From positions 1 to 64,000 of the forward strand of contig JAFKKG010000039.1 of assembly GCA_017305715.1 (NCBI GenBank): a stretch of 64,000 bases of DNA. Reading direction: 5' to 3'. Position numbers and translations under genes: made by a program. Shown piece by piece: positions 29,356 to 48,539 of the stretch; within the stretch, counting starts at the first letter, position 1; every line of letters begins with the position of its first letter. The stretch comes from Hyphomicrobiales bacterium (GTDB lineage: Bacteria; Pseudomonadota; Alphaproteobacteria; Rhizobiales; Xanthobacteraceae). Under the pieces are notes generated by a model. That model was given only the letters and a program-made list of their open reading frames with translations. It had not been told where the DNA came from and ran no database searches.

Positions 29356-29476
29356 GTCGCTGTCCAGCACGCTCAGGCTTGGCCGAGAAAAAATGATCCT
29401 GTTGGGAAGGCGAAGATGTCGGAACTAAGGGGCCCTGTTCGTCTTGAATCCGGCATCAGTATTTGGAGTTCCCCGC

Positions 29477-30394
29477 ATGGCCCCCCGCGCGAACTGGAAA
29501 GGCTTCCTGCGCCTTTCGCTCGTCACCTGTCCCGTCGCGCTCTATCCGGCCACCTCGGAATCCGAAAAGGTCTCATTCAACCAGCTCAACCGGAAAACCG
29601 GCCACCGCATCAAGTACGCCAAGGTCGACGCCGACACCGGCGAGGAGGTCGCCAACGAGGACATCGTCAAGGGATACAAGGTCGACACGGACACCTACAT
29701 CGAGGTGACGAAGGATGAACTCGAAAACGTTGCGCTTGAGTCGACGCGAACAATCGAGATCGACGAATTCGTCGACCGCAGCGAGATCGACCCAAGGTAT
29801 CTGATCCGTCCCTACTATCTCGTGCCGGACGGAAAAGTCGGTCACGACGCCTTCGCGGTAATCCGCGAAACCATCCGCGAGATGAACAAGGTCGCGATCG
29901 GACGAGTGGTGCTGACCAACCGCGAGCACATCATCGCGCTCGATCCGCTTGACAAGGGTCTGATGGGAACGCTGCTCCGTTACCCCTACGAAGTCCGCTC
30001 CGAGAAGGAGTATTTCGACGAGATCCAGGACGTCAAAGTCACCAAGGACATGCTCGATCTCGCCAGGCACATCGTCAACCAGAAGGCGGGCCACTTCGAG
30101 CCGGACAGGTTCGAGGACCAGTATGAAACCGCTCTCGTCGATCTGATCAACGCCAAACGCGCCGGGAAGCCGATCACGGCGAAAGAGCGGCCCCGGGGCG
30201 AGAACGTGGTCGACCTAATGGATGCGCTGCGCAAGAGCATCGGCGCCGAGCCAGGCAAGGGTTCAAAGCCGGCAAAGAAGCCGCGCAAGGTCGCAAGCGG
30301 CCAGAAGGAAATGCTGATGCCGATCGCCGGGAAAAAGCCGAAGGAAGCTGCGGCGAAGAAGCCTGCTGCCAAACCGCAGCGGAAGTCGGCCTAG
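29477..30394 (+). CDS. ku: Ku DNA end-binding protein
   Basis: The 305-residue bacterial Ku homodimer ring binds broken DNA ends for non-homologous end joining, normally with LigD. Start is ATG 29477 (MAPRANWKGFLRLSLV), with GGAG upstream. Conserved stretches are VSFNQLNRKTGHRIKYAKVD, YEVRSEKEYFDEI and ALVDLINAKRAGKPI. The lysine-rich tail (KKPKEAAAKKPAAKPQRK) is the usual C-terminal extension in alphaproteobacterial Ku. ligD is not in the window. A nearby LexA box suggests damage induction. Confidence 0.93.
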   Translation: MAPRANWKGFLRLSLVTCPVALYPATSESEKVSFNQLNRKTGHRIKYAKVDADTGEEVANEDIVKGYKVDTDTYIEVTKDELENVALESTRTIEIDEFVDRSEIDPRYLIRPYYLVPDGKVGHDAFAVIRETIREMNKVAIGRVVLTNREHIIALDPLDKGLMGTLLRYPYEVRSEKEYFDEIQDVKVTKDMLDLARHIVNQKAGHFEPDRFEDQYETALVDLINAKRAGKPITAKERPRGENVVDLMDALRKSIGAEPGKGSKPAKKPRKVASGQKEMLMPIAGKKPKEAAAKKPAAKPQRKSA

Positions 30395-30467
30395 GATTCG
30401 TGAAGCATCCGGTGACGCGGGACGGTCGGTACTTCATCGGAGTTTGCGGGCTCTTGAGGTCGATGCC

Positions 30468-31610
30468 TCACATCGCGAAAGGTCGCGAAGGTGCCGGCGC
30501 CTTGAAGCGATCGAAGACGTCAAGCACCTCGTCGGCATGGAACAGACGGTTGCGACTGGAGTCGTCCGGTACGCTCAAGATACCCTCGTCCTGAAGCAAG
30601 CGGGCGGCTGTGCTGGCCGCGGCGAAACTGACGCCGAGATCCTTTTGCACCTCGCCCACGGTGAAGACGGGTTTCGCAATGGCATACGGATAGAGCCTGT
30701 GGACTACGCTGTTACTCCGGATCCGCGCGAAACGCCCCTTCCATTCCGTTTCGATCGCTTCAAGCCTGTCCAGGCGTACGATATTCGAATCGGCGGTCCG
30801 CCGCAGGAAGCTCAGCATCTGACGAACGTAGTTTGTTGGATTCCCTGAAATCCGGGCGTCCTTCAGAGTGTCGATATATAGCGACTTGTCATCGTGGACG
30901 GCCTCCCCGAAAAAAGCGCATGCCTTGTTGGTGAAGCCCTTGGCTCGCAGGACGATCGGCACCAGGAGTCGGCCTATGCGTCCGTTTCCGTCTGCGACCG
31001 GATGGATATGCTCAAACATCCAATGCGACAGCACCTGCCGGACGATTTCGCTCGTTCCGTCTTCGGAGGCGAGCGTGAAGGCACTCCAGTCTGACAGCGC
31101 GGCTTCTATTGAGGACGGTTTTGTGTAGCCGAACAAGGCGGACAGCGAATCCGGATCTCGGACGTAATTCGGAATCTTTTTGAACGTGCCGGCGCCCGCC
31201 GCCAGCATCTTGTTCGGATTGCCTTCGAAGAGTCGCTTATGAATTCGAAGGATCAGACCTTGGAGGTCGCCATGATCGAGTGTTTCGTCCAGCCCCGCGG
31301 CGGCCGCGGCGACGACCGCCGCATCATTACGATCCGGTGCCACGCGCAAGGCGCTTTCGTATTCCATCAGGTCTGTGAACGTGGTGGTGGATCCCTCCGC
31401 CCCGGAAGAGTGAACTGCATCCAGACGAGCGAAAAGGCGACCAACCGTCCCCATCTTGTCTAGAGCCGAGAGGCGGCGGTCGAACTCCCGCAACGAGGCA
31501 AGTGCTGGGTCCAATAGTCCAATAACGTCTTCCAGCCGGGGAAATGGGGGGACGCTCGGACGAAACAGCCGCCGACCCTCGTCATCATACTCGAAAGTGC
31601 CAGAAGTCAT
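30468..31610 (-). CDS. Fic-family AMP-transferase with inhibitory helix
   Basis: 380 residues from ATG 31610. Fic proteins transfer AMP, or related groups, onto target proteins. The active loop HPVADGNGRIGRLL (His at about residue 200) matches HxFx(D/E)GNGRxxR apart from Val for Phe. Residues SSGAEG (about 67-72) form an S-x3-E-G inhibitory motif, placed N-terminally as in class II Fic enzymes, so activity is probably gated. A C-terminal winged-helix part (PVFTVGEVQKDLGVSFAAAS) is also present. It has its own promoter region, with an inverted repeat at 31644-31676. Confidence 0.88.
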   Translation of the reverse strand: MTSGTFEYDDEGRRLFRPSVPPFPRLEDVIGLLDPALASLREFDRRLSALDKMGTVGRLFARLDAVHSSGAEGSTTTFTDLMEYESALRVAPDRNDAAVVAAAAAGLDETLDHGDLQGLILRIHKRLFEGNPNKMLAAGAGTFKKIPNYVRDPDSLSALFGYTKPSSIEAALSDWSAFTLASEDGTSEIVRQVLSHWMFEHIHPVADGNGRIGRLLVPIVLRAKGFTNKACAFFGEAVHDDKSLYIDTLKDARISGNPTNYVRQMLSFLRRTADSNIVRLDRLEAIETEWKGRFARIRSNSVVHRLYPYAIAKPVFTVGEVQKDLGVSFAAASTAARLLQDEGILSVPDDSSRNRLFHADEVLDVFDRFKAPAPSRPFAM

Positions 31611-31643
31611 AACAGCCACCCCGCATATTATGACTTTTACATG

Positions 31644-31676
31644 CAAGTTGTAATAAGGCAAGTTCCTGTTACAAGT
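31644..31676. promoter_or_regulatory. inverted repeat upstream of fic
   Basis: AAGTTGTAA and TTACAAGTT form a near-palindrome (one mismatch) separated by about 15 bp, 35-70 bp before the fic start. Possible operator of the Fic protein's own winged-helix domain or of another regulator. Low confidence. Confidence 0.3.
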
Positions 31677-31836
31677 TCTAGGCCGCATCAGCTTCGCGGC
31701 TTATCGGACCCGCCGGTTAACACCCGGTGATCGGCCCGCCCGACGCAGTCAGATTTCAACACGAAAATCCGAATATCCCCTATTTTGAAGGTACGGCTGT
31801 CCCGCTGACGGGGGCGGCGGTGCGGGGAAGTGTGCC

Positions 31837-32454
31837 ATGGCGAGAAAACTGAAGACCTACCAGACCTCGCTGGGCTTCTTCGACCTTGCGATCGCCGCCC
31901 CCTCGATGAAGGCGGCTCTGGAAGCGTGGGGTGCCGACAGCAATCTCTTCCACCAGGGCGCGGCCAAGGAGAGCGACGATCCGGACGTGATCGCTGCGAC
32001 GATGGCGAAGCCGGGCATCGTTCTCAGGCGTCCCGTCGGCTCCGACGGATCCTTTGGCGAGCATGCCCACCTGCCCACCAATCTGGGAAACACCGACTCA
32101 CCGAAGAAAGTTGCCCGCAAATCGCAAGACCGCCAACCGAAGAAGTCTCCCTCCCGGCCGGTCGACAAGTTGGCGGAGCGGAAGGCGGCACTCGCGTTTG
32201 AAAAGGAGCAGAAACGTCGCGAGCGTGAACGGGCCGAGGAGGAGGCCACCAGACAGAAGCAGCGTGATCGCCGGCAGCAGGCGGTCGACAAGGCACAGGC
32301 GGCGCTGGACAAGGCCGAGCGGGAACATACGGAGAAGGCCGAGGCGATCAACGCCGAGATCGAGGCGCTCGAGCAAAGATCGCGAGCTGAAGACGCCCGT
32401 TGGAATAGGGAGAAGGAGCAATTGGGCGCCGCGCTGCGGCGCGCACGGAGCTAG
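31837..32454 (+). CDS. conserved protein with C-terminal coiled coil
   Basis: 205 residues. The N-terminal half (ARKLKTYQTSLGFFDLAIAAPSMKAALEAWG...FHQGAA) is a conserved globular region found in rhizobial genomes. The C-terminal half (AERKAALAFEKEQKRRERER...) is a long charged coiled coil reminiscent of TolA-like stalks. No signal peptide, so likely cytoplasmic. It often neighbours Ku/LigD genes in related bacteria by my recollection; function unknown. Confidence 0.6.
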   Translation: MARKLKTYQTSLGFFDLAIAAPSMKAALEAWGADSNLFHQGAAKESDDPDVIAATMAKPGIVLRRPVGSDGSFGEHAHLPTNLGNTDSPKKVARKSQDRQPKKSPSRPVDKLAERKAALAFEKEQKRRERERAEEEATRQKQRDRRQQAVDKAQAALDKAEREHTEKAEAINAEIEALEQRSRAEDARWNREKEQLGAALRRARS

Positions 32455-32812
32455 GGTTGCCTTGGAGCGCTAAGTACCGGTCCACGCAAGGCACGCACCT
32501 TCCAGGACTGCACAAACCGGCGATCTTCCGCAGGGAGATGCGGCAACTCTTGCCGCCGACAAGTCGCTCGACCAGGGTTCTCGTCGGATTAGAGGCCGCT
32601 GGAAAGGCTTCGAGCGGAAAGCGCGCCGAGTTGCTCTCCCGTGTGCCCGGGCGCGCCGTGGGGCTTGCCCGGCGGGCCAGGAGGGGAAATCGGTCCAGAG
32701 CGCCGCCTTCAAACGGTGGAAAGGTCCGTGGTTGCCTCCCATATCCCAAAGGCGTCGCGCAGTGGCGCCGCGTCCCGAAGGGACCAGCGCATATTTCTCA
32801 TAGGGGCATGGT
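32455..32812. other. intergenic stretch without a supported gene
   Basis: About 355 bp. Frames on the minus strand are open but low in recognisable content. No RNA or repeat seen. A ribosome-binding-like AGGGG precedes the GTG start at 32813. Confidence 0.4.
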
Positions 32813-34663
32813 GTGAGCAGCGAGAGTGGGGAGCCGCGTGTCATTACGCTGACTGAGTTCGAAGCCTGTGCTCTCAACGAGCCCATTGCGCGCCTGAACC
32901 AGGTGAACATGCCGGCCATATCGATCGCCTATGCCGGCGCAGCCGCGGCTTCTCCATCTCCGTGCCAGGAAGTCTACGGCCTGCTCGCCAACATCTGCGG
33001 TATTCACCTCAGCCCCGGTGATCGCGGCAGGATATGGGGAGCCGGCGCCCAGCAAGGAGGCCGGCGGACCATGATTCCGAGCGACCTTCGAGGAAGCCAA
33101 TCTGACGTCCTCGAAAAAATCCTGCCAGGCATCCGGCACCCGGCGCTGCGAGCCCGCATCGCGGACGTCGTTTGGACCAACGATCTTCGCAAGGCAGCCG
33201 TGGCGAGCATCGCCATCGGGGCCTACTGCGACTGCGTGGAAGGGCTGGCGAGCGGCGCGCTGAAGGCAGCATTTCCGGTCGACGGGCGAAACCTGATCGA
33301 CGCGAAGGCGCCGGTGCTGCGTGCGTTGCAGATTGCGTCGGCGATCAAAGGGCGCAATGCGCCACTGCCCGAGCGCGTGACCAACTTGATGGCTGCTCTC
33401 TACCGCCAAGGCCTACAGGAGGCGCAGCCCGTAATCTTCAAAGGTATCGCGCAGATCAGCGTCGAGTACAGGCTCGTCGATCCAAAGCAGGCGGCGGTCG
33501 ACCTCGAAGCCGTCGCCGGCGCAAAGCCGGATCTGTACGCCGACGCCATCCGGACGGCTCTCGACTATGCAAGCGATTTGTATCGTCGGGCAGGCGACAG
33601 TGGCAGCGAGGACCGTTGCCAACTGGCTGCTGTACGGCAGTTGCTCCGGATGCGTGACGGGTGCAGCCAGGCCAGCGCGAAGGCATCGTGGGTAATGGAC
33701 GCGCTTCAACGGCTGCGTCGCATCCAGGGCGACGAAGCGTTGGCGCTCGAGACCGAGTTGGAAGTGGAATTGCGGCTTCTGCAACGGGCGTCCCTGCGTG
33801 AAATGGGCACGTTTTCGATGGACGTTCGGATGGACACCGAGCGCGATCGTATTCTGGGCCTTTTCGCGGAACTGGATTTCTCTGCGGCGCTGCAATCGTT
33901 TGCTCTATTGGAATCTTCGCCCAACACGGAGGATCTCAAAAGGCAAGCGACGGAGCGGGCCGAGCAGGAACCGCTGAGCGCGATGATGGGCGCGAAGCAC
34001 CTGGACGACGAGGGAAGGACCATCGTGAACACGGCCGCCGCCGGATCCGGAGACCCGCCGGAAGACTGGTTCATCCGGATGATCGGGCAAGCGGAATCCT
34101 ATCGTCGCGCGGTGCTTGTCGCCAACAGCATCGATCCGGTTCGGTTTCTGATCGGCAGGATGGTCGCCATCGAGGAGCGTCACTTCCGACCCATCGTGTT
34201 CCAATCACCGTTCGTGTCGCAGTTGCAGGCGCCGCTATACGCGCTGGGCTTCGCCCGGTTTTTTCAGGGCGATTTCGCCTCGGCGGCCTACATTCTGTTT
34301 CCTCAGTTGGAGGCGAGCTTCAGGCATGTGCTGAAGGCTCATGGGGTCGATCCAACGAAGCGGCGCGATGATGCCACCGAAGAAGATCGCAGCCTGGACG
34401 CGATTATCGGTAACCACCGCTCCGAACTGGTCGAGATACTGGGAGAGGCACTGCTGGACGAGTTGAACCGGATCTTCAACATCCAGCCGGGCCCCACGCT
34501 CCGGCATGACGTCGCTCATGGACAAATGTCGGCAGGCCAGTGCTACTCGGCGGACGTCATCTACGCCTGCTGGCTGCTGTACCGCATATGCTGCCTGTTC
34601 TTGCTGCCCAAATGGGAGGAATGGGTGCGCCCCGGCCTTGCGATCGAGGAGCCTGGACGGTGA
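32813..34663 (+). CDS. DUF4209-domain protein with HEPN-type motif
   Basis: 616 residues starting at GTG 32813 (AGGGG upstream). The N-terminal two thirds are predicted helical repeats (for example DRIRGLFAELDFSAALQSF-type helices). The C-terminal domain ends LRHDVAHGQMSAGQC (about residues 561-575): R-H-D-x2-H is the RX4H active-site pattern of HEPN ribonucleases, and DUF4209 is the family I associate with this ending (RHxxAHG). Such proteins commonly occur in defence islands and may cleave RNA on infection. No obvious partner gene on the same strand. Confidence 0.65.
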   Translation: MSSESGEPRVITLTEFEACALNEPIARLNQVNMPAISIAYAGAAAASPSPCQEVYGLLANICGIHLSPGDRGRIWGAGAQQGGRRTMIPSDLRGSQSDVLEKILPGIRHPALRARIADVVWTNDLRKAAVASIAIGAYCDCVEGLASGALKAAFPVDGRNLIDAKAPVLRALQIASAIKGRNAPLPERVTNLMAALYRQGLQEAQPVIFKGIAQISVEYRLVDPKQAAVDLEAVAGAKPDLYADAIRTALDYASDLYRRAGDSGSEDRCQLAAVRQLLRMRDGCSQASAKASWVMDALQRLRRIQGDEALALETELEVELRLLQRASLREMGTFSMDVRMDTERDRILGLFAELDFSAALQSFALLESSPNTEDLKRQATERAEQEPLSAMMGAKHLDDEGRTIVNTAAAGSGDPPEDWFIRMIGQAESYRRAVLVANSIDPVRFLIGRMVAIEERHFRPIVFQSPFVSQLQAPLYALGFARFFQGDFASAAYILFPQLEASFRHVLKAHGVDPTKRRDDATEEDRSLDAIIGNHRSELVEILGEALLDELNRIFNIQPGPTLRHDVAHGQMSAGQCYSADVIYACWLLYRICCLFLLPKWEEWVRPGLAIEEPGR

Positions 34664-36856: not shown

Positions 36857-37717
36857 CTATCGCCTTTGCGCAGTGTGCATTCCGGATGGGCAGAGCGGAA
36901 TCGCGGAGGAGATTTTAACGACAGCACGCAATACGTTCGCCACCACCCTGGCCGAGCGCCCTTCGACCAGGAAACCGAGATCCATGGAGTGTCTGGCGAA
37001 CACCGTCATGTTGGCGCTGCCGACATAAGCGAGTTCGCTGTCGGCTAGGGCGACCTTGGCGTGGAAGGTCTCGAAACCGCCATCCGCCTCGATCGTGTAG
37101 TCGTAAGCCTCGAAGCCGAGAGCCGCCAACCGTGCTCCGCCATCAACAACAACGCGAGTGGCATCGCCCGCCCGGCGGACGACCAATCTCTTGTTGCAAG
37201 CACGGGTCCTCGCAAAGAGGGTCTCGACGAACTGGAGGCCTTCATGATTCAGGAACGGCGTCATGATGGTGAAGGCGTCGACCGCTCTATCCGCAACTGT
37301 CTGCAGCGCGTCCTTCGTCGAAACGAGCGAAGCGTGGGCAAAGCCGGTTTGCGAGAGCGCCACCGCGATGGCGCTGGGCGGCGGCGGCATCGTGACGATC
37401 GCGGTCGCCGTTTCCCGGGATACGATTTGCGAGCGCATCGCGGCAGCGCCGTCCAGGAACGGGATGACGGCCGGGGGCAGGGAGCCCGGACCCATTCTCC
37501 ATCCGGAGGCGATGGGCGTAAGCCATCCGCGGCGCACGAAGTCGGCTGCGACGCGCGCGAGAGTAGGGCGGGGCATGGACGGCAAACTGGAAGCATCGAT
37601 TGTGCCGGCTGGTGAGCGGTCGGCCATCGCTGCGGCAAGCTGCGCGGCCATCGCGCAGTCGTCTCCAAGTTCGGCAACGAGAGAACGCGACAGCGAGCTT
37701 CCGATCGTCGCGTTCAT
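36857..37717 (-). CDS. drmC: DrmC, phospholipase D-like DISARM protein
   Basis: 286 residues with a single PLD HKD motif near the C-terminus: FHAKVALADSELAYVGSANM (His at about 217; HxKx4D...GSxN). One HKD per chain means it would act as a dimer, as bacterial PLD nucleases do. Its N-terminal 130 residues are helical and carry PTLARVAADFVRRGWL, a winged-helix-like segment. Starts at ATG 37717, overlapping the drmB stop by four bases. In DISARM, DrmC is the PLD component, often dispensable for protection. Confidence 0.82.
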   Translation of the reverse strand: MNATIGSSLSRSLVAELGDDCAMAAQLAAAMADRSPAGTIDASSLPSMPRPTLARVAADFVRRGWLTPIASGWRMGPGSLPPAVIPFLDGAAAMRSQIVSRETATAIVTMPPPPSAIAVALSQTGFAHASLVSTKDALQTVADRAVDAFTIMTPFLNHEGLQFVETLFARTRACNKRLVVRRAGDATRVVVDGGARLAALGFEAYDYTIEADGGFETFHAKVALADSELAYVGSANMTVFARHSMDLGFLVEGRSARVVANVLRAVVKISSAIPLCPSGMHTAQRR

Positions 37718-39951
37718 GGCGCTGCGTCCGCTGCGGCTCTCGTTCGCCGGCGAGCGATTTCATAGTAGCCCGTGAGCTCCCTGCCTTCCATGTCCCACCG
37801 GGGAGAGCCGCGTCCGACGAGCACCGAACGCGACAGAAGCTCGTTGCGGGTAAGACAGGCCGTCTCGGGAATGAGCAGACAGTCGGGGCAGGCCCCGCCG
37901 CGGTGATTGCACACGCTCTCAGAGCCGCAACGCAGGCTTGCCGGGTCGACCATACGGTCGAGGACTTCGTTTCCGAAGGCGGAATCGCCTCTGTCGCGCC
38001 ACATGGACGACAGATTGCCGAGATCCATCGTCATGCCGCGGCGATAGACCAGGAAGGCGAGATCGGGAACGAAGATGTGCTCTCCGAACGACCCCAGATC
38101 CAGACCGGACATCGAGGCCGAGATGCCGAGAAGATGGTGCGCCATGGTGTGCAGCAGCGTGTAGATATAGGGGTAGGCGAGCCGCGGAACGTTGCGCTCC
38201 CGGCGGTACTCGTCGAGAAACCGCGAGAACCGGACATCCTGGTCGTGGTGCATCCGGGAGAATTCCTCGATCAGGCGTCCACCGAGACGGACGCCGGCCT
38301 CGGCAGGCGCAGGCCGGATCCCGTTCGCCTCAAGCCATTCGAGCACGCACGTTTCGTCGAGGCGGACGTAAAAGCCCTCGTTGGACTGGACAAGACAGAG
38401 CACGGGATGAAGGGCCCGGTCCCCGACCGCGACCTTGTCGAACAGGCGCAGCCGGACCGGCATCTCGGCCGTACCGGCCTTGTCCCGCGTAACGGTAGGC
38501 AGCGAACTGGTGCGGGTGTAGGCAAAGGTATATTCGCAGACGCGCACGTCGCGGACGAGACGCATTTCCGCGATTCCCAGCAGATCTCTGCGGATGCGCA
38601 CTTGCGCAAGCAGCCGCGCGCGTTCCTGGGGCTGCAGATCGTCCGGAAACAGGAATTCGTCGAGGATCGTCAGATCGACGGAGACGTCCTTGCCGTCCGG
38701 CATCTGCCTTCCGTGAAGGCGCTCCTCCGTGAGGGTCTTGTGTTCGAGGGCCATTCGCACCGGGTCGAACCGACGGACGTAATCGGTTCGTTCGCGGCAC
38801 GCGCGGTCTATCCCATCCACGGCCTGATGATGTCCGGCGAACACGGTCGCATTCCACTCGGCCTCGGTTCGAGCGGTCACGGCGCGTTGCGCGGCGATCA
38901 GTTCCGGCTCGACGCCCGTCATCCCTTCGAGCTGCGGGATGAAGTCGCGTATCCGCCGGTAGTTGTCCCACTGGGTCGACTGTCCGGCGGCCTGCAGGAG
39001 CCTTTCTTTTTCCGCATCGTCCATGTGCGTGGGCGGATAGCCGTATTCGCTCGACAGAAAAGCGCTCAACGGCGCCGTATGTGCCGATCCCAGCAACTGG
39101 ATGTAATGCTCCTGGTCGAACACCAGCAGTCTGTCACCGTGGACGTAGTAGACCGCGGAGGCACGGGCGGAGATCGGCTCCATGTTGATTTCGGCCGGCA
39201 ACGCCTGGTTCTGGGCAAGCAGGGGGCCGAGCTCTTCGAGGGTCGTGAGATCCCTTTGCTGCATCTGTCTCGGCAGCCTGCAAGTGACGCACTGGAACTC
39301 CCAGTTGCCCAACCGGCCCGGCGGACGATGGAGATAGAACCGATCCGATCCGCAGGACGTGCAGCGGTTCAAGTCCCGCACCGAGCCGTCGTGCCAAGAT
39401 CTGTAGTTCGGCGTGATCGCCTCGACGTTTCCTGACCAGTGTGCGAACACGACGTCCAACTGCTGCCAGTCGTTTTCGCAACCTTCCGGGCCCGATGGAC
39501 ACGCATGCCTGAAGCGCGCCGCCTCCTCGGCAAGGCGTTCGACCCGGTCGCTGTACCTGTGCAACTTGCAGCGCGTGCAGACGAACGAGAGCGGGAAGGG
39601 TACGTACCCGACGTGGTCGGGAACCTGGAAGGCGAGATCGCCGAGGCGGACGCGCACGGTGTCGTCGCTTATCACCCGTCCGTCCACCGCCAAGTTCAGC
39701 GGAACGATGTGTCTGAGGTTGGTACCGCGGGTCGCCCTCTGCGCCCATGCCTCGAAGTATTCCTGGATCTGCTCGGAGATCATCCGCTGGGTATTGGCCC
39801 GCAACTCGTCGCCGGCGATCCTGTTGCCGGGACTCGGTAGCGCGAAGCACGCTCCGGAGCCGCCTTCGAAGGTGAAGAGGCTGTGGGGGGCGTAGGCCGT
39901 CGCAAGTTGGCCCCGCGACCGCTGCATCGTGGGCGGATGGGAATTACTCAT
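37714..39951 (-). CDS. drmB: DrmB, DUF1998-domain DISARM protein
   Basis: 745 residues from ATG 39951. Zinc-binding Cys pairs are at VCTRC (about 120), RCTSC (about 195), QCVTC (about 220) and the C-terminal CNHRGGACPDCLL (about 679), the last being the hallmark of DUF1998 helicase-associated proteins. MAHHLLGISASMSGLDLGSF is the other DUF1998 signature. In DISARM the DrmAB pair is the core complex that binds and processes phage DNA. ATGA overlaps on both sides. Confidence 0.88.
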   Translation of the reverse strand: MSNSHPPTMQRSRGQLATAYAPHSLFTFEGGSGACFALPSPGNRIAGDELRANTQRMISEQIQEYFEAWAQRATRGTNLRHIVPLNLAVDGRVISDDTVRVRLGDLAFQVPDHVGYVPFPLSFVCTRCKLHRYSDRVERLAEEAARFRHACPSGPEGCENDWQQLDVVFAHWSGNVEAITPNYRSWHDGSVRDLNRCTSCGSDRFYLHRPPGRLGNWEFQCVTCRLPRQMQQRDLTTLEELGPLLAQNQALPAEINMEPISARASAVYYVHGDRLLVFDQEHYIQLLGSAHTAPLSAFLSSEYGYPPTHMDDAEKERLLQAAGQSTQWDNYRRIRDFIPQLEGMTGVEPELIAAQRAVTARTEAEWNATVFAGHHQAVDGIDRACRERTDYVRRFDPVRMALEHKTLTEERLHGRQMPDGKDVSVDLTILDEFLFPDDLQPQERARLLAQVRIRRDLLGIAEMRLVRDVRVCEYTFAYTRTSSLPTVTRDKAGTAEMPVRLRLFDKVAVGDRALHPVLCLVQSNEGFYVRLDETCVLEWLEANGIRPAPAEAGVRLGGRLIEEFSRMHHDQDVRFSRFLDEYRRERNVPRLAYPYIYTLLHTMAHHLLGISASMSGLDLGSFGEHIFVPDLAFLVYRRGMTMDLGNLSSMWRDRGDSAFGNEVLDRMVDPASLRCGSESVCNHRGGACPDCLLIPETACLTRNELLSRSVLVGRGSPRWDMEGRELTGYYEIARRRTRAAADAAP

Positions 39952-42900
39952 GAATTTGTTCCGGTATCGGCACCGACGTCGAGTTCGCTGCCGGAGCCTC
40001 GTCTGGCATTTACGCCGCGGTTGCGGATCATGACCACGGCATTGACCAATTGTTCGTCGGTGATCACCTTGTTCGTTTGCGAGCGCCGGCTTCCTTCGAT
40101 ACGTCCCTGGGCGTCGACGTCCCGCAGGCTTGTCATCGGCCGTACCAGACCGGTGTTGGTCGCCTTCCAGAAGTCGTTCAGGCCTCCGGTGTAGTTCTTG
40201 CTGTCGAGCACCTGCCGGATGCGTTCCACTTCGGAACGAGCCAGGTCTCCATAATATTCCGGATTGGTCGGCGAGCCGGTCGCGGCTCCTATGCCGATGG
40301 CGGCGCAGACGAAGCGGACGCAATCGTCGAAGTCCGGTCGGGAACGCAGCAGTCTTGCCGCGGCCTCCACGGTGGATGGCAGCGAAACCGAGCCTTTCTG
40401 ATCGTCCGGGGCGGCCATGAAGCGCTCGTTGTGCCGCACGCCGGCGAGCCAGGTCTGCAATATGGACGGAATCGTCCGGCCAATGGCGCGATCCGCCCAT
40501 CGTTCGACGGCGGGCGGAGAGATCATGCGTTCCAGCAATCGATGGAAGGACTCATGGACCTCGACGATGAACCGGTCCCGTCGGGTCTGCGGCGTCGGGA
40601 TCAGCAGGGAAAAACCCACGTGGGTACGGCCGACGCGCGACGACGCCTGGATGTATTCGGCGATGTCGGACGGCATTCCGGCGAACGCCATCGCGTTGAA
40701 GAACTCGACGTCGACGCCATGGGAGATTGCCGACGTCGCCACGATTCCGCGCAGCGCCGACGAAATGTCGTCGGACATCGGGTCGAACCTCTCTTCGGCG
40801 CGACGGATGACGGACTGGATGCCGGAAATGTCGACGCCCCCGGAAATGAGCTCCATGGAGAAGTCGGCGAGGGCGTATTCGTCGCCCATGGCGGAGTGGA
40901 TCTCCCGGACTTCCGTTTCCAACGCCGAGAGGATCTGGTCGCCGCCCTTCTTGTTCGTCACGTAGGTGAGCTCGATCCGATGCAAATCGACCAATTCCGC
41001 GAGCCGGTCATATCTTCCGTCGGCGGCCGCCCGTCCGAGCGCCGCGATCCGGCGATCCGACCATGGAGCCGTCGACACGCAGGCGATCATCTCGTTCGCG
41101 GCCCGGGCCCGCCGGGCAGGGTCGGTTGCGCTCAGGTCGCGCTGCCATCTGGTTATCGTGGCCGCATGCGCCGCCAGAACGGACAGCGTGGTGACCGTAT
41201 GGAGCCGGCCGTTGGTCATGAGGCTCGCGTACACACGTCCCCATGGGGCCGCCCGTTCCAGCCCGCGGGGCGTCGTGCCGGATTCTGCACGTACTGCCGC
41301 CGCAGCGCCGTCCGGCGCGAATGTCGCCATCCGGGTGTAGAAACCTTCGTGAAGGGCCGGCCCCGGATGGGGAAATTGCACGACTTTCCGCTGATAGAGC
41401 GCTCGCGTGTGCTTGGCGACGTCTACGGCCGTCGCCGTCGCCCCGATGACGTGGGGCAATCGGGGTCGGCCCGGGGCCGACGGGACCTGAACGACACGAT
41501 CCTTCAGCATCGGCGCCAGGCGGGTCAACCACTCAAACAGGGCGGTCTCGAAGATGCCGCCGAACGTGCCGAGGCTCTCTTCGAGCAGGTGCATCTCGTC
41601 CTGGACGATGAGGCTCGGGAACGGATCGAAAAAAACCTCATCGCCCGACCGGAACGATGGTGCCACCCGTCGAAAGCCTGCCGGCGTTTCGTTGGGTTGT
41701 TGGCCGCCGATCATGTGCAGGAGACCAAGGGGACCGTCCTGCACATGGCGGGCCATGCCGAACATGCCTGCAACGCGGTCGATCGTGTTGACGTTCTGAC
41801 CGAGGAGCGCGAGCTTGTCGATCGTGCCCAGCAAAACGGCCGGTGCCGACCGGTAGATATCGGTGTCGACCAGGAGAAAAGGAAGCGGTTCGCGCCCTTG
41901 AGGTCCCGTCGTCTCAATGTTCCACTCGCATCGGCCGTTGAAGCAGACGATGCCCAGTCGGTTGTGGCGCTGCGGATAGAGGCGAAGCCCGGTGTCCTCG
42001 GACGAATTGCAAAAGGGGCATCTCCGAAGCTTGTTCCAAGCTTCGTTGGCGATGACGTATTCGCGTGCCGCTGTTTCCTGCCCGTCGACGACCGGGATGC
42101 ACTTCATTTCGTCCGATAGCGTCCCGGACCTCTTCTCCGTGGCGTTTGGCGTATTGCCGCTCCCGACCCAGAACCCGATTTCGAAGACGGCACCGCCGAC
42201 GTTCTCGCGTCTTCGGACCATTTCCGCCTGCGCCAGCAGACGCGCAAGGCGTTGCGCCTGCTGCACGGTGAGAAGGCGCAGCGGATAGTGCATCATGGCC
42301 GTTACGCCACGGGACTTGCCGCGAAGCCGATCAAGGAAGAGCGCGAAGACGAGTACGCCGAAGAAGGCCTCTGTCTTGCCGCCGCCGGTTGCCATGTAGA
42401 GGAGGCTTGCGGCGTCCTCGTCGAACGCCGCATCGAACTCGCCCGCGAAGTCGGGAACGCGCGAAGCGAGGGTGGGCACGTGGGCCAGCACGAATGCGAG
42501 CTGGAAAAGACGCCACCCCGGTGGTTGATCCCGCGATGGCGGGTTCGCTCTTGAGAAGGTCCGATTCAGCAGCAGCCATGCTCGATAAGGTATCGCAGCC
42601 GCCGAAGTGGGATCGTCTTTCGAGGCTTGCTGGGATCGCGCGAGGAGGCGGATGCCCTTCCTGATGCGATCCGATTCGCGGCGCCATGCATGGAGGTCGT
42701 CTTCGAAGCGGGTTCGCTGCGCGGCTTCATCCGCGTCGCTCCCTTGCTCTCCGGGTTGGGTGATGACGGTGGTGCGCGCGACGCGCTCGATCCAGCTATT
42801 CATCTCCGTTGAAAGGGCTTCGAGCGTTCCGACTTGGGCGTCCGCCGACGACAGCGCGTCGTACTGCGTCATAACCGCGGCGATCTCGGTAGCTTGGGTC

Positions 42901-44156
42901 CGCGGGAGCACGTAGCGTGGCATCCAGGTGGTCCGGAGGCGCCTATCGGCGCCGTGAATCCCGAGGTCGTCGACGCCGCCGTTCACCCCGATCGCGGGCA
43001 TGGTCATGAATCCGGCGAGATGATAGCTGCGCCGGACGCGTTCCAGACGCATGGGACCGAGAGCGTCGGCGGGGATGTCGAGCGACAGCGAGACGCCATA
43101 GAGTCCGAATTCCTGGGTAGGATCGTTCTCTTGAAGGTTCTCGATGGCGATGCGCACCGAGAACGCGCCGTTCACGATCGGGTCGGCCAGGGCCTGTGCG
43201 AGAATCTGAACGTCGAAGTCCGGAACAAGATTGTTGTCGACAACCGGACGTGCCCGTACGCCGGCGAGGAAGCGGTCCCAATCCTCCCTGGACCAGAACG
43301 CTTCCGAAGGAGGATGCACGTTCCGCCATGCATTCTGCACTCCGTCGGACGAGCGCAGCCAGGTTCGATATGCCTCCCCGATAGCGTTTTTGAGCACCTG
43401 CTTGTAGGCAAGCGAAGCTACGGTCCAGGCATCGGGATCGCAGGGCAGGGGTAACTGGAACGGCGCGATCTCGACCGGCAGCCTGATCCATTTGAGTGGA
43501 ACGTCATAGCGCTGCGAGACGGCACTCGGGATCCGCAGTCTTTCGTTGCCTGCGGGCGCCTGTTGGACGGTCCCGTCGCCCCGCGGTGCGTCGTCGATTT
43601 CTGGGTCATCGCCGACAGCAGGAACGTCGGCTCCTCGCGGTATCACGACTCCCATCGCGAGATGCACTTCGCGGGATATCTGGGCGCGAATACGGAAACG
43701 TTCGCTGGCGGTCGTGCCTTGTGGAATTTCCGCCTGCACCCTTTGCCGGATGGCGTCCCTGATCTGCGTTCTGGCCCCCGGGCTGAAGCCGGGCTGGGGT
43801 ATCAGCCAGCCGTTGCGCGCAAAGAGTTCCTCCGTCGTAGGCAACGCACGCACGTATACATTGAACGCCGGTCGTACGACTAGAGTGCCGGTCGCGCCTG
43901 GGAGGATGCGGAAGTCAAGTCCGTGAGAAGCGATCCGGATATCGCTGGATTCGTCGTCGCCGTCCTCGTCCAGCCTGGGCAGGATGAAGCCGCTGGCGAG
44001 CTTTCTTGCCGGTCGTTCGTTGAAGACCAGTCTGCCGAAGTCGCCATCGCCGCTGACGACGACCCGCACACGCTCGAGCACCGCGTCGCAAACGGCCTCC
44101 TTAAGCTCCTGGCGCTCGTCCCACGACATTCCGGTCAGGGCATTCGGCTCGGCCAT
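39948..44156 (-). CDS. drmA: DrmA, SF2 helicase of a DISARM-like system
   Basis: 1402 residues. Superfamily 2 helicase motifs: Walker A MATGGGKTEAF (about 588), DEMH box (VQDEMHLL, about 851), GATATA (motif III), and QASSRVGRTHVGF (motif VI, about 1169). A zinc site (CPFC...CFNGRC, about 711-745) lies between motifs I and II. The first 550 residues are a large family-specific domain. Size and order fit DrmA, a DNA translocase that couples to DrmB. One base separates it from the upstream 898-residue protein gene. Confidence 0.88.
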   Translation of the reverse strand: MAEPNALTGMSWDERQELKEAVCDAVLERVRVVVSGDGDFGRLVFNERPARKLASGFILPRLDEDGDDESSDIRIASHGLDFRILPGATGTLVVRPAFNVYVRALPTTEELFARNGWLIPQPGFSPGARTQIRDAIRQRVQAEIPQGTTASERFRIRAQISREVHLAMGVVIPRGADVPAVGDDPEIDDAPRGDGTVQQAPAGNERLRIPSAVSQRYDVPLKWIRLPVEIAPFQLPLPCDPDAWTVASLAYKQVLKNAIGEAYRTWLRSSDGVQNAWRNVHPPSEAFWSREDWDRFLAGVRARPVVDNNLVPDFDVQILAQALADPIVNGAFSVRIAIENLQENDPTQEFGLYGVSLSLDIPADALGPMRLERVRRSYHLAGFMTMPAIGVNGGVDDLGIHGADRRLRTTWMPRYVLPRTQATEIAAVMTQYDALSSADAQVGTLEALSTEMNSWIERVARTTVITQPGEQGSDADEAAQRTRFEDDLHAWRRESDRIRKGIRLLARSQQASKDDPTSAAAIPYRAWLLLNRTFSRANPPSRDQPPGWRLFQLAFVLAHVPTLASRVPDFAGEFDAAFDEDAASLLYMATGGGKTEAFFGVLVFALFLDRLRGKSRGVTAMMHYPLRLLTVQQAQRLARLLAQAEMVRRRENVGGAVFEIGFWVGSGNTPNATEKRSGTLSDEMKCIPVVDGQETAAREYVIANEAWNKLRRCPFCNSSEDTGLRLYPQRHNRLGIVCFNGRCEWNIETTGPQGREPLPFLLVDTDIYRSAPAVLLGTIDKLALLGQNVNTIDRVAGMFGMARHVQDGPLGLLHMIGGQQPNETPAGFRRVAPSFRSGDEVFFDPFPSLIVQDEMHLLEESLGTFGGIFETALFEWLTRLAPMLKDRVVQVPSAPGRPRLPHVIGATATAVDVAKHTRALYQRKVVQFPHPGPALHEGFYTRMATFAPDGAAAAVRAESGTTPRGLERAAPWGRVYASLMTNGRLHTVTTLSVLAAHAATITRWQRDLSATDPARRARAANEMIACVSTAPWSDRRIAALGRAAADGRYDRLAELVDLHRIELTYVTNKKGGDQILSALETEVREIHSAMGDEYALADFSMELISGGVDISGIQSVIRRAEERFDPMSDDISSALRGIVATSAISHGVDVEFFNAMAFAGMPSDIAEYIQASSRVGRTHVGFSLLIPTPQTRRDRFIVEVHESFHRLLERMISPPAVERWADRAIGRTIPSILQTWLAGVRHNERFMAAPDDQKGSVSLPSTVEAAARLLRSRPDFDDCVRFVCAAIGIGAATGSPTNPEYYGDLARSEVERIRQVLDSKNYTGGLNDFWKATNTGLVRPMTSLRDVDAQGRIEGSRRSQTNKVITDEQLVNAVVMIRNRGVNARRGSGSELDVGADTGTNS

Positions 44157-44157
44157 T

Positions 44158-46854
44158 CTAGTCCCCGACCCTTACAGTGTTCACGTCCTCGACTACATCG
44201 ACGGATTCCATGACCTGCTGCCAGAGGCCCTGCATCGTCTTCCAGATGCCGGCCGATTCCGGGTCCAGGACGAACTGAACGACGCGCTGGTTGAACAGAT
44301 GTCCCTCCTGAGCCCGATACGACCGGGCAGGGAGCACTGCGAACTTCCAGTAGATGGAAGCAAGGCTCTCCTCGACTTCCACCGCCTTCATGAAAAGGCA
44401 AAAGCGCGGCCAGTCGCGCGCGGCCCCCGGAGCCCGGCTTCCCTCGAGCGAAGGGCGAGCAATGTCGGCGGTCATCCAGCGCGTTATGTTGTGAATCTCG
44501 TCTCCGGTCGAACGATCGATCTCGCGCATCCGGACGAGAACGTTCCGTCCCTTCTCCGCCAGCGAGCTACCCGGTATTTTGGACCGGATGTCGGCGACAT
44601 GCGCGTGGTAGGTCGCAAGCTGCATCTGGCTCTTTCGCGAGCCCGCGATCGCGAGCCGCAGCGGCTCGCGGATAGTCGCGTCCAGGACGAGAATCCGCTG
44701 ACCGGCCTGCACTTCTCGCGCCTGAATCCTCTCAAACGGCCGTAGCTCACCCGGTGACATCAACAGGATTTCGCCGCCCGGGCGGTAGTCCAGCCGAAGA
44801 CCGCTATGCATTGTCAGTTGGATCACGTCACCGCGGTAGGCCTCATCCGACTGCGTGAGGTCGACCTCCCGTTCCTTGATCACGCTGGTTACGCTGAATT
44901 CGGCTTCGGCCTGATCGAGGGCCTCGTCCGCTCCACCGCGCTTCAGGGCGGCGATGAGCGACTTTGCACGGCCCGCAAAGGCCGAGAATGCGTCGATCGT
45001 CTCGATCGAGGAAAGTTCGGCCGAAAGCAATGCGCTGCCGGCGGTGTCACCAAGGAGATAAGCCGTCTTAAGGGCGCTCCTCGTCGTGAGGAGCGCGTGG
45101 ATTGCCTCCGGAGTAGGGCCCACGACGATCAGCCGCTCGGGACGATCAGATGTCAGGTGCGATGCCAAGCCACGATGGTCGACGACCGAGCAGCGATAGT
45201 TGATCGCGCGATCGGATGCCAGGAACACTTCTCCGACGCGACGGTCCGGAAGCGAGACGGTCGTTCTCGGCGAATCCATGTCCGACGTCGCAAGCAATTC
45301 GACTAGCTTGGCGGCCACAGGCGTGTCCTGTTCCCAGCCCGAAACCTTGGCCTCGATTTTTTGAACGGCAAGCCTGACGTCGTTCGCAAAAACGGGATGG
45401 AGTTCGCCGGTTGCGATCAAGTCGGAAAGGACCATCTTCGGGCGGAACATTGCCCGCAGGGCCGCATCGAATTCCTCGTCCTCATCGTAGATGATATCCG
45501 CGATGTCCCGGGCTTCCGTGAGGCCGAGCGGAAGCGAGGCGCAGCGGCGGACGAAGGCGAGCGTGCGGGATACGGCTTCGGCAGCGCGAGAGGCACCCTC
45601 GTCGCGCATCCGACGACCCAAAACAACGAGTTCCTTCCGGATCGGCGCGAGCGAGGCGTCCTTGATGTCGGCTTGAAACGAGATAGGCGGTACTTCCGTC
45701 GGCACGTTCGGCGCGGCTCCTAGCAGGGTCGGGTGCTCGAGGTAGATGCCGAGTTGCTGCGCCTTTACCTTCGGGCGGCGAGTTTCCGCATGCCTCTTCA
45801 ACAGACGGAAGGCGCGCCGATGGACGAACGACTCCTCAGCGACGACGATGACACCCGGCCGCCGGCCCGCGATCGAATCCAAGGCGTCCAAAAGGGCCTC
45901 GAATCTTTTTTCCCAGTCGTCCTGGATCTCGGAACGACCTATGCGGGTCAGATCAGCGACAACCAGATCGAGACCTTGTTGCTCAATGCGAGGACATCCG
46001 AGATGTCGGGTCAAACCTTCAGGGCTATGTGCAGCCGGCAGTCCCAACAGGATGAAGGGTGCGCGCGTCGGGTCCCCTACCGCGCCCACATGTTCGACCA
46101 GACCGGCATTGGGTTCGCCCATCGATGTGTATTTTCGTACACGGCGCAGTATTTGTTCCGGAGCCGCTTGGTAAGCATGTGCGCCCCTCTGTCGGGTCGG
46201 AGAAAACACCGAAGTGGTTTCCAGAAGCGTAGGGCTTCGGATCACGATGGACTTGACGTTGCCGATTGTAGCCGAACTGGCGTGGCTCCTGACCAGGTCC
46301 CTGAGCCGCATCTCCAGCATGCACAGCGACTGATGGGCGAGCGAACTCGACTGCCACTCCGCTTTCGTTACGTCGTTGTAAGCGGCAAGGGATGCGCGAG
46401 CGATGTCGTCCGGATTGACCAGAATGGATCTCGCGGCGCGCAACGCTCCCTCGCGCCAAGGCCAGTAGCCGACGGTTGCATGCGCAAGACGGCCCGATGC
46501 GCGCGCTTCCCGGAGAAAGATGCAGGACGCGACGAACGCGCCTCCGGGCTTGGATGGCCACGAAATGATGGCTCTGGCGGCCGCATCCTTGACGCTCGCG
46601 AAAGCAGTCTCGATGAGCGGCCCTCCGGCGTCGACCGACAACCAGTTGGTAGGATCCGCCGTCGTGGCGTACCTGACGCCCGTGGGCGTCGAGACGCCAG
46701 GCCGTAAAAGGTGGTCCGGGGGCGCCGATGCCCGGGTCGCCTGCAGGAGCACGCGGATACGTTCGGTCTGGGCTCGCGACTGCTCCTGCCTGGCGAGCGG
46801 AGCCAGACCTCGCTCGGAGCGCCCGAACTTGTCGTTTTTGTTCCCGGGCTTCAT
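44158..46854 (-). CDS. unassigned 898-aa protein in a DISARM-like operon
   Basis: The 898-residue protein shows no Walker A (GxGKT) or SNF2 motifs and is not recognisable as DrmD. The middle has two Rossmann-like strand stretches (LDLVVADLTRIG and RPGVIVVAEESFV; later RPERLIVVGPTPEAIHALL). A beta-rich segment (RGDVIQLTMHSGLRLDYRPG ... GELRPFERIQAREVQAGQRI) precedes a helical C-terminus (NITRWMTADIARPS). It overlaps the methylase gene by ATGA and is followed one base later by drmA. Position and size suggest a DrmE-like role (class 2 DISARM); that is inference. Confidence 0.6.
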   Translation of the reverse strand: MKPGNKNDKFGRSERGLAPLARQEQSRAQTERIRVLLQATRASAPPDHLLRPGVSTPTGVRYATTADPTNWLSVDAGGPLIETAFASVKDAAARAIISWPSKPGGAFVASCIFLREARASGRLAHATVGYWPWREGALRAARSILVNPDDIARASLAAYNDVTKAEWQSSSLAHQSLCMLEMRLRDLVRSHASSATIGNVKSIVIRSPTLLETTSVFSPTRQRGAHAYQAAPEQILRRVRKYTSMGEPNAGLVEHVGAVGDPTRAPFILLGLPAAHSPEGLTRHLGCPRIEQQGLDLVVADLTRIGRSEIQDDWEKRFEALLDALDSIAGRRPGVIVVAEESFVHRRAFRLLKRHAETRRPKVKAQQLGIYLEHPTLLGAAPNVPTEVPPISFQADIKDASLAPIRKELVVLGRRMRDEGASRAAEAVSRTLAFVRRCASLPLGLTEARDIADIIYDEDEEFDAALRAMFRPKMVLSDLIATGELHPVFANDVRLAVQKIEAKVSGWEQDTPVAAKLVELLATSDMDSPRTTVSLPDRRVGEVFLASDRAINYRCSVVDHRGLASHLTSDRPERLIVVGPTPEAIHALLTTRSALKTAYLLGDTAGSALLSAELSSIETIDAFSAFAGRAKSLIAALKRGGADEALDQAEAEFSVTSVIKEREVDLTQSDEAYRGDVIQLTMHSGLRLDYRPGGEILLMSPGELRPFERIQAREVQAGQRILVLDATIREPLRLAIAGSRKSQMQLATYHAHVADIRSKIPGSSLAEKGRNVLVRMREIDRSTGDEIHNITRWMTADIARPSLEGSRAPGAARDWPRFCLFMKAVEVEESLASIYWKFAVLPARSYRAQEGHLFNQRVVQFVLDPESAGIWKTMQGLWQQVMESVDVVEDVNTVRVGD

Positions 46855-48539
46855 GCCGCCCTGCGGGTCGAAGCAGCGCGTCCGGACATCGTGTACGCGA
46901 GTTCGACTGCGGCCTCGAAGTCATCCGTCCTCTTGAGGGCGCTCCGCAGATGCCGGGGCGTCGGCAGCGGGAGATTCCGTAGCGCAGCAATGGAAATGCT
47001 CGACGTTCCCCCGACGCGCCGGAAGCGCTTGTCGACCGCGTCGCTGTTCAGCAGCATACTTAGAAGGGAAAGGTTCGCGCGCCGGCAGGGAATGAGCGCG
47101 ATCGTGTGATTTTCGCCGACGTATCCCTTGTATTTTTGCACGACCTTCCGCGGAACCACCGCGGCAATAAGACGTCGGGCCTGCCTGCTGTTGGTGGTGC
47201 GCTGCAGGAGGACGGACGGCTTTCGGATAACTCCAGAATGGATTTTTTCGAAGAGGACGAAGTCGACACCGCGACCGTCCTTGCTCCGCGGCAGGCAGGG
47301 CCTTCCCGGTTTGATGTTCGTGCCCCAAAAAAGCGGGAAGGCATTGCCGGACTTTTTCCCGCTCTGCAGACGATCCGGCTCGCGATTCCACACGAAATAG
47401 CCGGCCTTTGGATCGACACCGTAATCCGAGAGACGCCCGAGGCAGCTTTCGAACGCGCTGTCGTCCCCAGGCAGGATCCAGGGAGCCGTCGGAAGATCGT
47501 TGCCTGTCGTTACGACGCCGTTTTCCGCGAACTTCCAGTTCCGGTCGAGACGCCCGACCTTCGGGGCAAAAGTCTTGGTGACGGCGCGCGAGCTACCCTT
47601 CACACGGAAGATCGATACGCAGGCGTCCTGCTGAACGTCGTGAAAGACGTCCTTCCGTTCCAGCACGTCGATGCGCAGGACGTCCGCCCGACTTCGAATG
47701 TGCTCGCGCAGCCTTCCGAAGAGGGCGCCGGAAATGAAGCTCGACGGAGTGACGGTCGCAACCAAACCGCCGGGTTTCGTCATCCGGAAGGCGAGGTCCA
47801 TGAAGAGCGCATAGCGGTTCACGTGTCCCGGCGCGGAAAATGCGCTCCATTCGGCGGGAATTTCGTTGCCCAGGCCCAGGATCCGACCATATGGAGGATT
47901 CACGAAAACCGCGTCGTATTCGGCGACCTTACAGCCGGCCAGCGAGTCGCCAATCCGGATCAGCCTTCTCTTCGCCGCGCTGCGGGAAGCACTTAGACGG
48001 TCACGAACCAGCGCTTCACCCAATATCGCGAGATGAGGATCAATTTCGATCCCGGATATTCTAGCCCTGATGTCTTTGGGCTCGCACCCAAGCTCCGTCA
48101 TGCGACCCGCGAGGCTCGAAACGAAAGCGGCGCCTCCGGCAGCCGGGTCGATGACATTGGCCTTTCTGAGATCCAGATCGGCTTTCTCCGCCTGGCCGAT
48201 GAGGTGACGAACAATCGCCGGCGGAGTGAAATAAGTCGCCTTCTCGCGCCTCACTGCTGCGCTCATCAACAGCGTGTAAAAAGTGCTGATCCAATAGTGA
48301 CGGTCGTCGACGTCGAGCTTGTTTAGCTCGATGCGCAGGCTCGCGGTTGGCCGGCCGAACCTGGGGGTTTGGTCGCTGCGTTCCAAGAGAGACAGTGCAA
48401 GCGCCAGCCGGGTGCGTGACTGCAACCGATCGATCGTAGTGAAGCTGTTTTCGACATCGGAAATGGTAGCTCGAATGAGCGTCCGAAGTCTTTCGGGCGC
48501 CGCATCGCGCGCCATAAGATGGGCAACTTCCGCAATCAT
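46851..48539 (-). CDS. adenine-specific DNA methyltransferase (Eco57I type)
   Basis: 562 residues. SAM-binding motif I VIDPAAGGAAFVSSL (about 127) and catalytic NPPY (FVNPPYGRI, about 212) define an N6-adenine methylase. The C-terminal half (from about residue 330) looks like a target-recognition domain with NRQARRLIAAVV and GGTSSISIAALRNLPLP, as in Eco57I/TaqI-like enzymes. No nuclease motif seen. GGGGAGG precedes ATG 48539. It would protect host DNA. It is shorter than the DrmMI methylases I know. Confidence 0.85.
   Translation of the reverse strand: MIAEVAHLMARDAAPERLRTLIRATISDVENSFTTIDRLQSRTRLALALSLLERSDQTPRFGRPTASLRIELNKLDVDDRHYWISTFYTLLMSAAVRREKATYFTPPAIVRHLIGQAEKADLDLRKANVIDPAAGGAAFVSSLAGRMTELGCEPKDIRARISGIEIDPHLAILGEALVRDRLSASRSAAKRRLIRIGDSLAGCKVAEYDAVFVNPPYGRILGLGNEIPAEWSAFSAPGHVNRYALFMDLAFRMTKPGGLVATVTPSSFISGALFGRLREHIRSRADVLRIDVLERKDVFHDVQQDACVSIFRVKGSSRAVTKTFAPKVGRLDRNWKFAENGVVTTGNDLPTAPWILPGDDSAFESCLGRLSDYGVDPKAGYFVWNREPDRLQSGKKSGNAFPLFWGTNIKPGRPCLPRSKDGRGVDFVLFEKIHSGVIRKPSVLLQRTTNSRQARRLIAAVVPRKVVQKYKGYVGENHTIALIPCRRANLSLLSMLLNSDAVDKRFRRVGGTSSISIAALRNLPLPTPRHLRSALKRTDDFEAAVELAYTMSGRAASTRRAA

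Follow-up and report, generated by a model that had tools for sequence, protein, structure and literature searches.

A five-gene operon on the minus strand of a Hyphomicrobiales bacterium (assembly GCA_017305715.1, contig JAFKKG010000039.1, whose positions 1–64,000, forward strand, are referred to here as the window) probably represents a distinct subtype of DISARM (defence island system associated with restriction-modification), in which an NPPY-type, probably adenine-specific, DNA methyltransferase is combined with a highly diverged member of the DrmE family. The operon (36857–48539) comprises, in this order, the methyltransferase (562 aa, 46851–48539), an 898-aa protein referred to below as X (44158–46854), the helicase DrmA (1402 aa, 39948–44156), DrmB (745 aa, 37714–39951) and DrmC (286 aa, 36857–37717). 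Overlaps of 4 bp (ATGA) join the methyltransferase gene to X, DrmA to DrmB and DrmB to DrmC, and X is separated from DrmA by a 1-bp gap (TAG-A-ATG). The initial annotation of this stretch had described such a tightly joined set of five minus-strand genes, and its coordinates and junctions were confirmed; only the start of DrmB had to be corrected, as its longest open reading frame (ORF) runs from 40500, inside DrmA, and the ATG that fits the operon lies at 39951 and gives the 745-aa product.

Sequence comparison identifies DrmA, DrmB and DrmC as homologs of their DISARM counterparts. DrmA was recognised by the NCBIfam model DISARM_DrmAS (E-value 5.4e-104, 349 bits against a curated cut-off of 950) and by PADLOC (3.3e-89), DrmB by PADLOC (5.2e-15) and NCBIfam (1.4e-8, 34 bits, curated cut-off 240), and DrmC by PADLOC (2.1e-8) and NCBIfam (9.1e-10, 38.5 bits, curated cut-off 133); since all three NCBIfam scores fall below the curated cut-offs, these proteins are to be regarded as divergent members. 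Profile matches to the haloarchaeal proteins extend over 1157 columns for DrmA (E 2e-107), 595 for DrmB (5.3e-37) and 167 for DrmC (4.3e-18); with bacterial DrmB, the match was confined to the C-terminal part, 212 columns for a class 1 protein and 214 for one of class 2 type. DrmA exhibits the motifs TGGGKT (aa 590–595), QDEMH (aa 852–856) and QxxSRxGR, as well as a Cys4-type insert (C713, C716, C738, C743); among DrmA proteins of at least 1000 aa, GGGK[ST] and QxxSRxGR are present in 85 of 85 and [QH]DE[AM]H in 79. DrmB, of the OB-CON-DUF1998 type and encoded by a gene of its own after DrmA, belongs to a family in which the Cys pattern is kept in 83 of 85 members. DrmC, by family a PLD-type nuclease, has one HxKx4D motif (HAKVALAD...GSANMT), and HxKx4[DN] is found in 64 of the 66 members of at least 170 aa; an N-terminal four-helix bundle is described for DrmC of DISARM in PMC12458937. 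The methyltransferase is Eco57I/Alw26I-like, with the motifs FTPP, DPAxGGA and NPPY, and was matched by Pfam Eco57I (2.5e-9), by PADLOC MTase_II (1e-99) and, below the cut-off of 353.5, by the NCBIfam adenine methylase model TIGR02987 (63.2 bits). NPP[YFW] occurs in all 80 family members of at least 400 aa, and the C-terminal half is also conserved (VRxPxVxLQRTTNxxQ and GFVxENH in an alignment of 22 members, A6). The N6-adenine type is probable, judging from sequence. As the motor motifs of DrmA, the HxKx4[DN] motif of DrmC and the NPP[YFW] motif of the methylase are kept, these activities are predicted to be live.

The operon recurs widely. GTDB genome contigs were scanned with a DrmA alignment, the best 80 of 350 relatives were kept, and their genes were called with hidden Markov models (HMMs) seeded from operons of the X type. 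X or pieces of it were found in 76 of these 80 loci (pieces in L010, L014, L036 and L077; cut in L053). Three of the loci without X (L016, L037, L041) start inside DrmA at a contig end; in the fourth, L079 (9770–18037), the DrmA match begins at residue 134 (5'-truncated), with no upstream X and with DrmB, DrmC and the methylase following, and this operon is possibly decaying. Of 86 loci (the window included; the duplicates L001, L007 and L012 removed; L008 and L062 each counted although they are one contig), 82 have X in the orientation of DrmA, either overlapping the DrmA ORF or stopping no more than 100 bp short of it, an arrangement that is beyond chance; the other four have no X match. In the gene-order analysis each ORF was taken from its first possible start, which overstates overlaps. 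Methylase-family matches were found in 77 of the 80 loci, on the opposite strand in L026 (where the match is weak, 214 bits), L052, L069 and L088, and the three loci without one (L024, L041, L053) have one operon side at a contig end. With duplicates included, the commonest order is methylase-X-DrmA-DrmB-DrmC (47 of 89 rows), followed by X-DrmA-DrmB-DrmC-methylase and methylase-X-DrmA-DrmB (10 rows each). A tblastn search of plasmids revealed five relatives of X; in every case a gene for a DrmA-like helicase comes immediately after X and is followed by DrmB-type genes, and four of the operons include an N-6 methylase; the exception (L006, R. phaseoli) has X-DrmA-DrmB-DrmC and, beyond, a weak, reversed methylase-like ORF. 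Plasmid pRL10 of Rhizobium johnstonii 3841 carries a five-gene operon of this kind. Four pattern matches of X in viral contigs included no relative. The hosts are mostly Proteobacteria (Alpha-, Beta- and Gamma-); also represented are three Acidobacteriota, a member of the Geobacteraceae and an Ignavibacteriota bin. The system is rare: one genome matched out of a sample of 385 from the class, and two out of 299 from the phylum, the source genome being among them in both cases.

DISARM type I is listed as DrmA, DrmB, DrmC, DrmD and MI, and type II as DrmA, DrmB, DrmC, DrmE and MII (as given in PMC9252829), DrmMI being described as an adenine and DrmMII as a cytosine methylase (PMC9142583). The initial annotation had placed the operon outside both gene lists, as a mixed or new subtype, and its recurrence as a lineage of its own, in the loci and in a DrmA tree, bears this out. 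In the tree (44 rows, of which 27 were chosen as X type; a quick IQ-TREE run with SH-aLRT, the Shimodaira-Hasegawa-like approximate likelihood ratio test, as sole support, midpoint-rooted for drawing and with long branches flagged) the 27 X-type DrmA form one clade (SH-aLRT 100, stem 2.41). The DrmA of haloarchaeal DrmE systems, of Rubrobacter and of Roseomonas fall on the side of this clade, those of L103 (class 1) and of L091 and L093 (bacterial, class 2 type) on the opposite side. The operon from the Ignavibacteriota metagenome (L028, a Stygiobacter bin) groups among alphaproteobacterial rows, which may reflect transfer or a wrongly binned contig.

The operon resembles class 2 and the haloarchaeal loci L102, L106, L107 and L108 in having a DrmE-family gene before DrmA-DrmB-PLD, and the haloarchaeal systems also in the profile matches of DrmE, DrmA, DrmB and DrmC. 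However, L102 and L107 have a cytosine methylase (no such gene was seen in the stretches covering L106 and L108), while an NPPY methylase is present here; the operon methylase is not of the cytosine type of class 2 DrmMII. Unlike in class 2, X goes undetected by DrmE models and the accompanying DrmA sits on its own long branch. With class 1 (L103) the operon shares homologous DrmA, a homologous C-terminal part of DrmB and a methylase that is not of the C5 type, but DrmD of L103 exhibits GLGKT and DEAH, whereas both motifs are missing from X, which gives no match to this DrmD. ARMADA, BRIGADE, TALON and Druantia (PMC12458937) are likewise YprA-type helicase defence operons; unlike in these, separate genes here encode the helicase and the DUF1998-type part, with a PLD protein after them, features attributed to DISARM in the same source. 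Because a DrmE relative is combined with an NPPY methylase, DrmA forms a separate clade and the profiles match, the operon is classified as a subtype of DISARM that belongs to neither class 1 nor class 2 as these are defined. Or could it be an ordinary class 2 DISARM, in which the cytosine methylase was swapped for another, and no separate subtype at all? The relationship of X to DrmE and the matches of DrmA, DrmB and DrmC to haloarchaeal DrmE-bearing systems would be consistent with this, but the X-type DrmA stand well away from the tested bacterial class 2, the methylase family accompanies X across phyla, in 77 of the 80 loci (nearby C5, or cytosine, methylases were not searched for), and X is recognised by no DrmE model; we consider such a swap unlikely.

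The assignment of X itself comes from profile-profile comparison. DrmE proteins were gathered through NF038316 and through plasmid DISARM loci, and the DrmE profile was built from four haloarchaeal proteins and the protein of G098. The Halobacterium DrmE exceeded the cut-offs of both NF038316 (103.6 bits, cut-off 80) and Pfam DrmE_C (46.1 bits, cut-off 27), and that of G098 reached 117.3 bits with NF038316. The hhalign comparison of 77 full-length X proteins (including the duplicate contig L008/L062) with these five DrmE proteins confidently identified a relationship (Prob 97.6, E 4.8e-12, score 110.3, 361 columns), which was retained with the four haloarchaeal DrmE alone (E 1.4e-10); the control scores were 25.4 for a reversed profile and at most 19.3 in 60 column shuffles and 42.5 in 60 block shuffles. 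X 430–640 (E 1.7e-7) and X 640–740 (E 7.7e-7) match DrmE separately and in the same order. DrmE_C was also the most-matched family among 59 C-terminal fragments of X, weakly (4 of 59, best E 0.041), and the place of X directly before DrmA is that of DrmE in haloarchaeal DISARM. On this profile evidence X is homologous to DrmE in its C-terminal half and is a highly diverged DrmE.

Several results weigh against this assignment. The HMM search against DrmD and DrmE, proposed earlier as a check, came back empty for 45 full-length X members (HMMER, NCBIfam and Pfam), as did PADLOC for six aligned members at E up to 10. The N-terminal half of X (aa 1–489) has no match to the DrmE profile, X 740–898 alone reached E 0.035, which was not counted as a match, and X showed no significant match to any sequence compared singly (G098, L. 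plantarum, and Rubrobacter at Prob 16). The X protein of the window, too, was matched by no family model of PADLOC, Pfam or NCBIfam. The initial annotation had left X unassigned and seen it as a replacement of DrmD; DrmD was rejected, as no DrmD model matched, hhalign against DrmD of L103 gave Prob 0.1 and X has no Walker A motif, and what emerged instead is a distant DrmE, with the place of DrmE by DrmA and a predicted superfamily 2 (SF2) helicase core. Identity with another known defence protein was rejected for want of any PADLOC match. DrmE_fam (NF038316) was found in 0/1, 2/398, 0/5 and 0/199 genomes of the samples; viral contigs held no relatives of the Halobacterium DrmE or the L. plantarum protein, and plasmids held none of the G098 DrmE, for the Rubrobacter protein only that protein itself and, for the L. 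plantarum protein, 3 records of the same species.

By sequence, no credible solved relatives were identified for X or for one DrmE, the C-terminal profile of X giving seven sub-threshold rows against solved structures, of which five are inteins (E 0.05–0.77). Structure prediction, which had also been suggested as a check, gave a confident AlphaFold2 model of X (predicted local distance difference test 86.0, predicted template modelling score 0.80) with an SF2 helicase core of two tandem RecA domains, for which Foldseek found Hef, XPF and WRN, tied, as the nearest structures, the VIA matches spanning X 54–646. The likeness to the helicase-like domains of these proteins is one of fold only; the helicase domain of XPF is ATPase-dead. 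The predicted RecA1-like half (aa 54–400, 45655–46695) contains strands 93–100, 126–131, 267–271, 297–301, 334–339, 365–372 and 392–398. By the order strand-loop-helix, the place of the Walker A loop would be X 99–106 (WPSKPGGA, 46537–46560), where W99 and P100 are each kept in 76 of 77 X proteins and there is no GK[ST]. The absence of Walker A noted in the initial annotation thus holds for the family: the pattern occurs in only 2 of 77 members, near residues 736 and 543, both far from the place of motif I. The putative motif II place, X 301–304 (DLTR, 45943–45954), follows strand 297–301, with the Asp kept in 66 of 77 and no Glu after it. The predicted RecA2-like half (aa 527–640, 44935–45276; strands 531–535, 556–559, 574–578, 597–603) aligns with DrmE. 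Next comes a predicted Hint (intein/Hedgehog)-like beta fold, formed by X 657–725 (44680–44886) and a last strand, X 885–895 (44170–44202), which closes the region aligned with inteins; between the two lies a modelled helical stretch (aa 726–884, 44203–44679) with the most conserved residues of X, including Y749 and W793 (each 77 of 77). The similarity to Hint of inteins and Hedgehog is again one of fold only: unlike Hint, X has this helical insertion and lacks the usual catalytic residues, with a Cys at X 655–668 in 0 of 59 members (Ser was left out of this count) and a His somewhere in X 684–697 in 20 of 59, at no kept block-B position. X is thus predicted to be a catalytically dead SF2 helicase core with a degenerate Hint-like C-terminal domain.

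The model raises the question of whether X could be an independent dead helicase, derived from SF2 and recruited to DISARM-like operons, whose match to DrmE reflects a shared RecA2/Hint arrangement and not descent. The lack of a DrmE match in the N-terminal half and of HMMER matches in the 45 members would agree with such an origin. However, two consecutive segments, one of them including the unusual Hint-like domain, match DrmE in order (1.7e-7 and 7.7e-7), X shares the place of DrmE beside DrmA, and hhalign found no match between X and the other helicases tested, DrmA and DrmD, which makes an independent origin improbable and favours X as a divergent DrmE. That X is a methylase specificity subunit binding DNA sequence-specifically, in a restriction-modification-like operon with DrmABC as the restriction module, is suggested by the adjacency of methylase and X in the commonest order (47 of 89 rows), but is very improbable, because the methylase elsewhere lies at the far operon end (10 of 89 rows) or on the opposite strand while X stays with DrmA, and because the methylase's own conserved C-terminal half could serve recognition.

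Related arrangements were seen in other loci. On a Rubrobacter tropicus plasmid (L104, 2400–13573), a protein weakly similar to DUF1156 methylases (57 bits, cut-off 1000) occurs with an 839-aa protein that has a sub-threshold DrmE_C match (21.4 bits, cut-off 27), DrmA, DrmB and a PLD protein, possibly a further DISARM subtype with another methylase/DrmE-like combination. In L092 (5113–10491), a 1792-aa ORF, a part of which matches DrmE_fam 605–836 (1.3e-22), lies upstream of DrmA- and DrmB-sized ORFs and is perhaps a DrmE fused to something large. Plasmids of Rhodococcus (L096), Azospirillum (L097) and Rhizobium rhizogenes (L098) carry DrmA-DrmB beside NERD-domain genes, the latter two also with UvrD-type helicases, and no annotated DrmC, DrmD or DrmE alongside; these appear to be DISARM-like operons of another kind. 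Beside the operon of the window, at 29444–34660, there are genes for Ku (29444), for a member of the Fic family and for a DUF7380/DUF4209 protein. No tRNA was found in the window, and a comparison of two flanking genes with 26 genomes of the genus established no empty site of the island, because one of them, for a sulfite exporter, is poorly conserved and the other, Ku, is multicopy in most genomes.

In DISARM, DrmAB is reported by Bravo et al. (PMC9142583) to be autoinhibited, to be activated by 5'-overhang DNA and to need ATP hydrolysis, its ATPase being lower on methylated DNA, while DrmC is apparently non-essential. By analogy, the methylase of the operon would mark host DNA as self, DrmA-DrmB would act as an ATP-driven translocase loading on unmodified invading DNA with ends or single-stranded parts, and DrmC would be the nuclease. 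We infer that X, like the ATPase-dead helicase domain of XPF, would not hydrolyse ATP and would be a structural subunit binding DNA and partners, which may help DrmAB to recognise target DNA or couple DrmAB to DrmC or to the methylase; in class 1, a similar position would be taken by the SNF2 helicase DrmD.

The combination of methylase and accessory protein described here is not listed in the published DISARM classes, and X is assignable as a divergent DrmE. Despite its wide occurrence, the subtype escapes the tested models for X, and its DrmA, DrmB and DrmC score below the NCBIfam cut-offs. DrmD and DrmE are described as less-conserved components, whose interplay with DrmAB is still to be studied (PMC9142583), and in the open-licence PMC literature we found no account of a third DISARM class or of DrmE as a helicase. 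The predicted fold of X provides a testable hypothesis for DrmE in general, namely a dead helicase with a Hint-like domain. We give even chances to the broader proposal that the operon constitutes a third DISARM class and that DrmE is a pseudo-helicase, whose SF2 core has lost ATP hydrolysis and whose intein-like (Hint) domain, interrupted by a helical insertion, has been domesticated and is dead. If this is true, every class of DISARM would combine DrmAB as motor with one more subunit of helicase fold, which would be active in class 1, where it is DrmD, and inactive in class 2 and in the X type.
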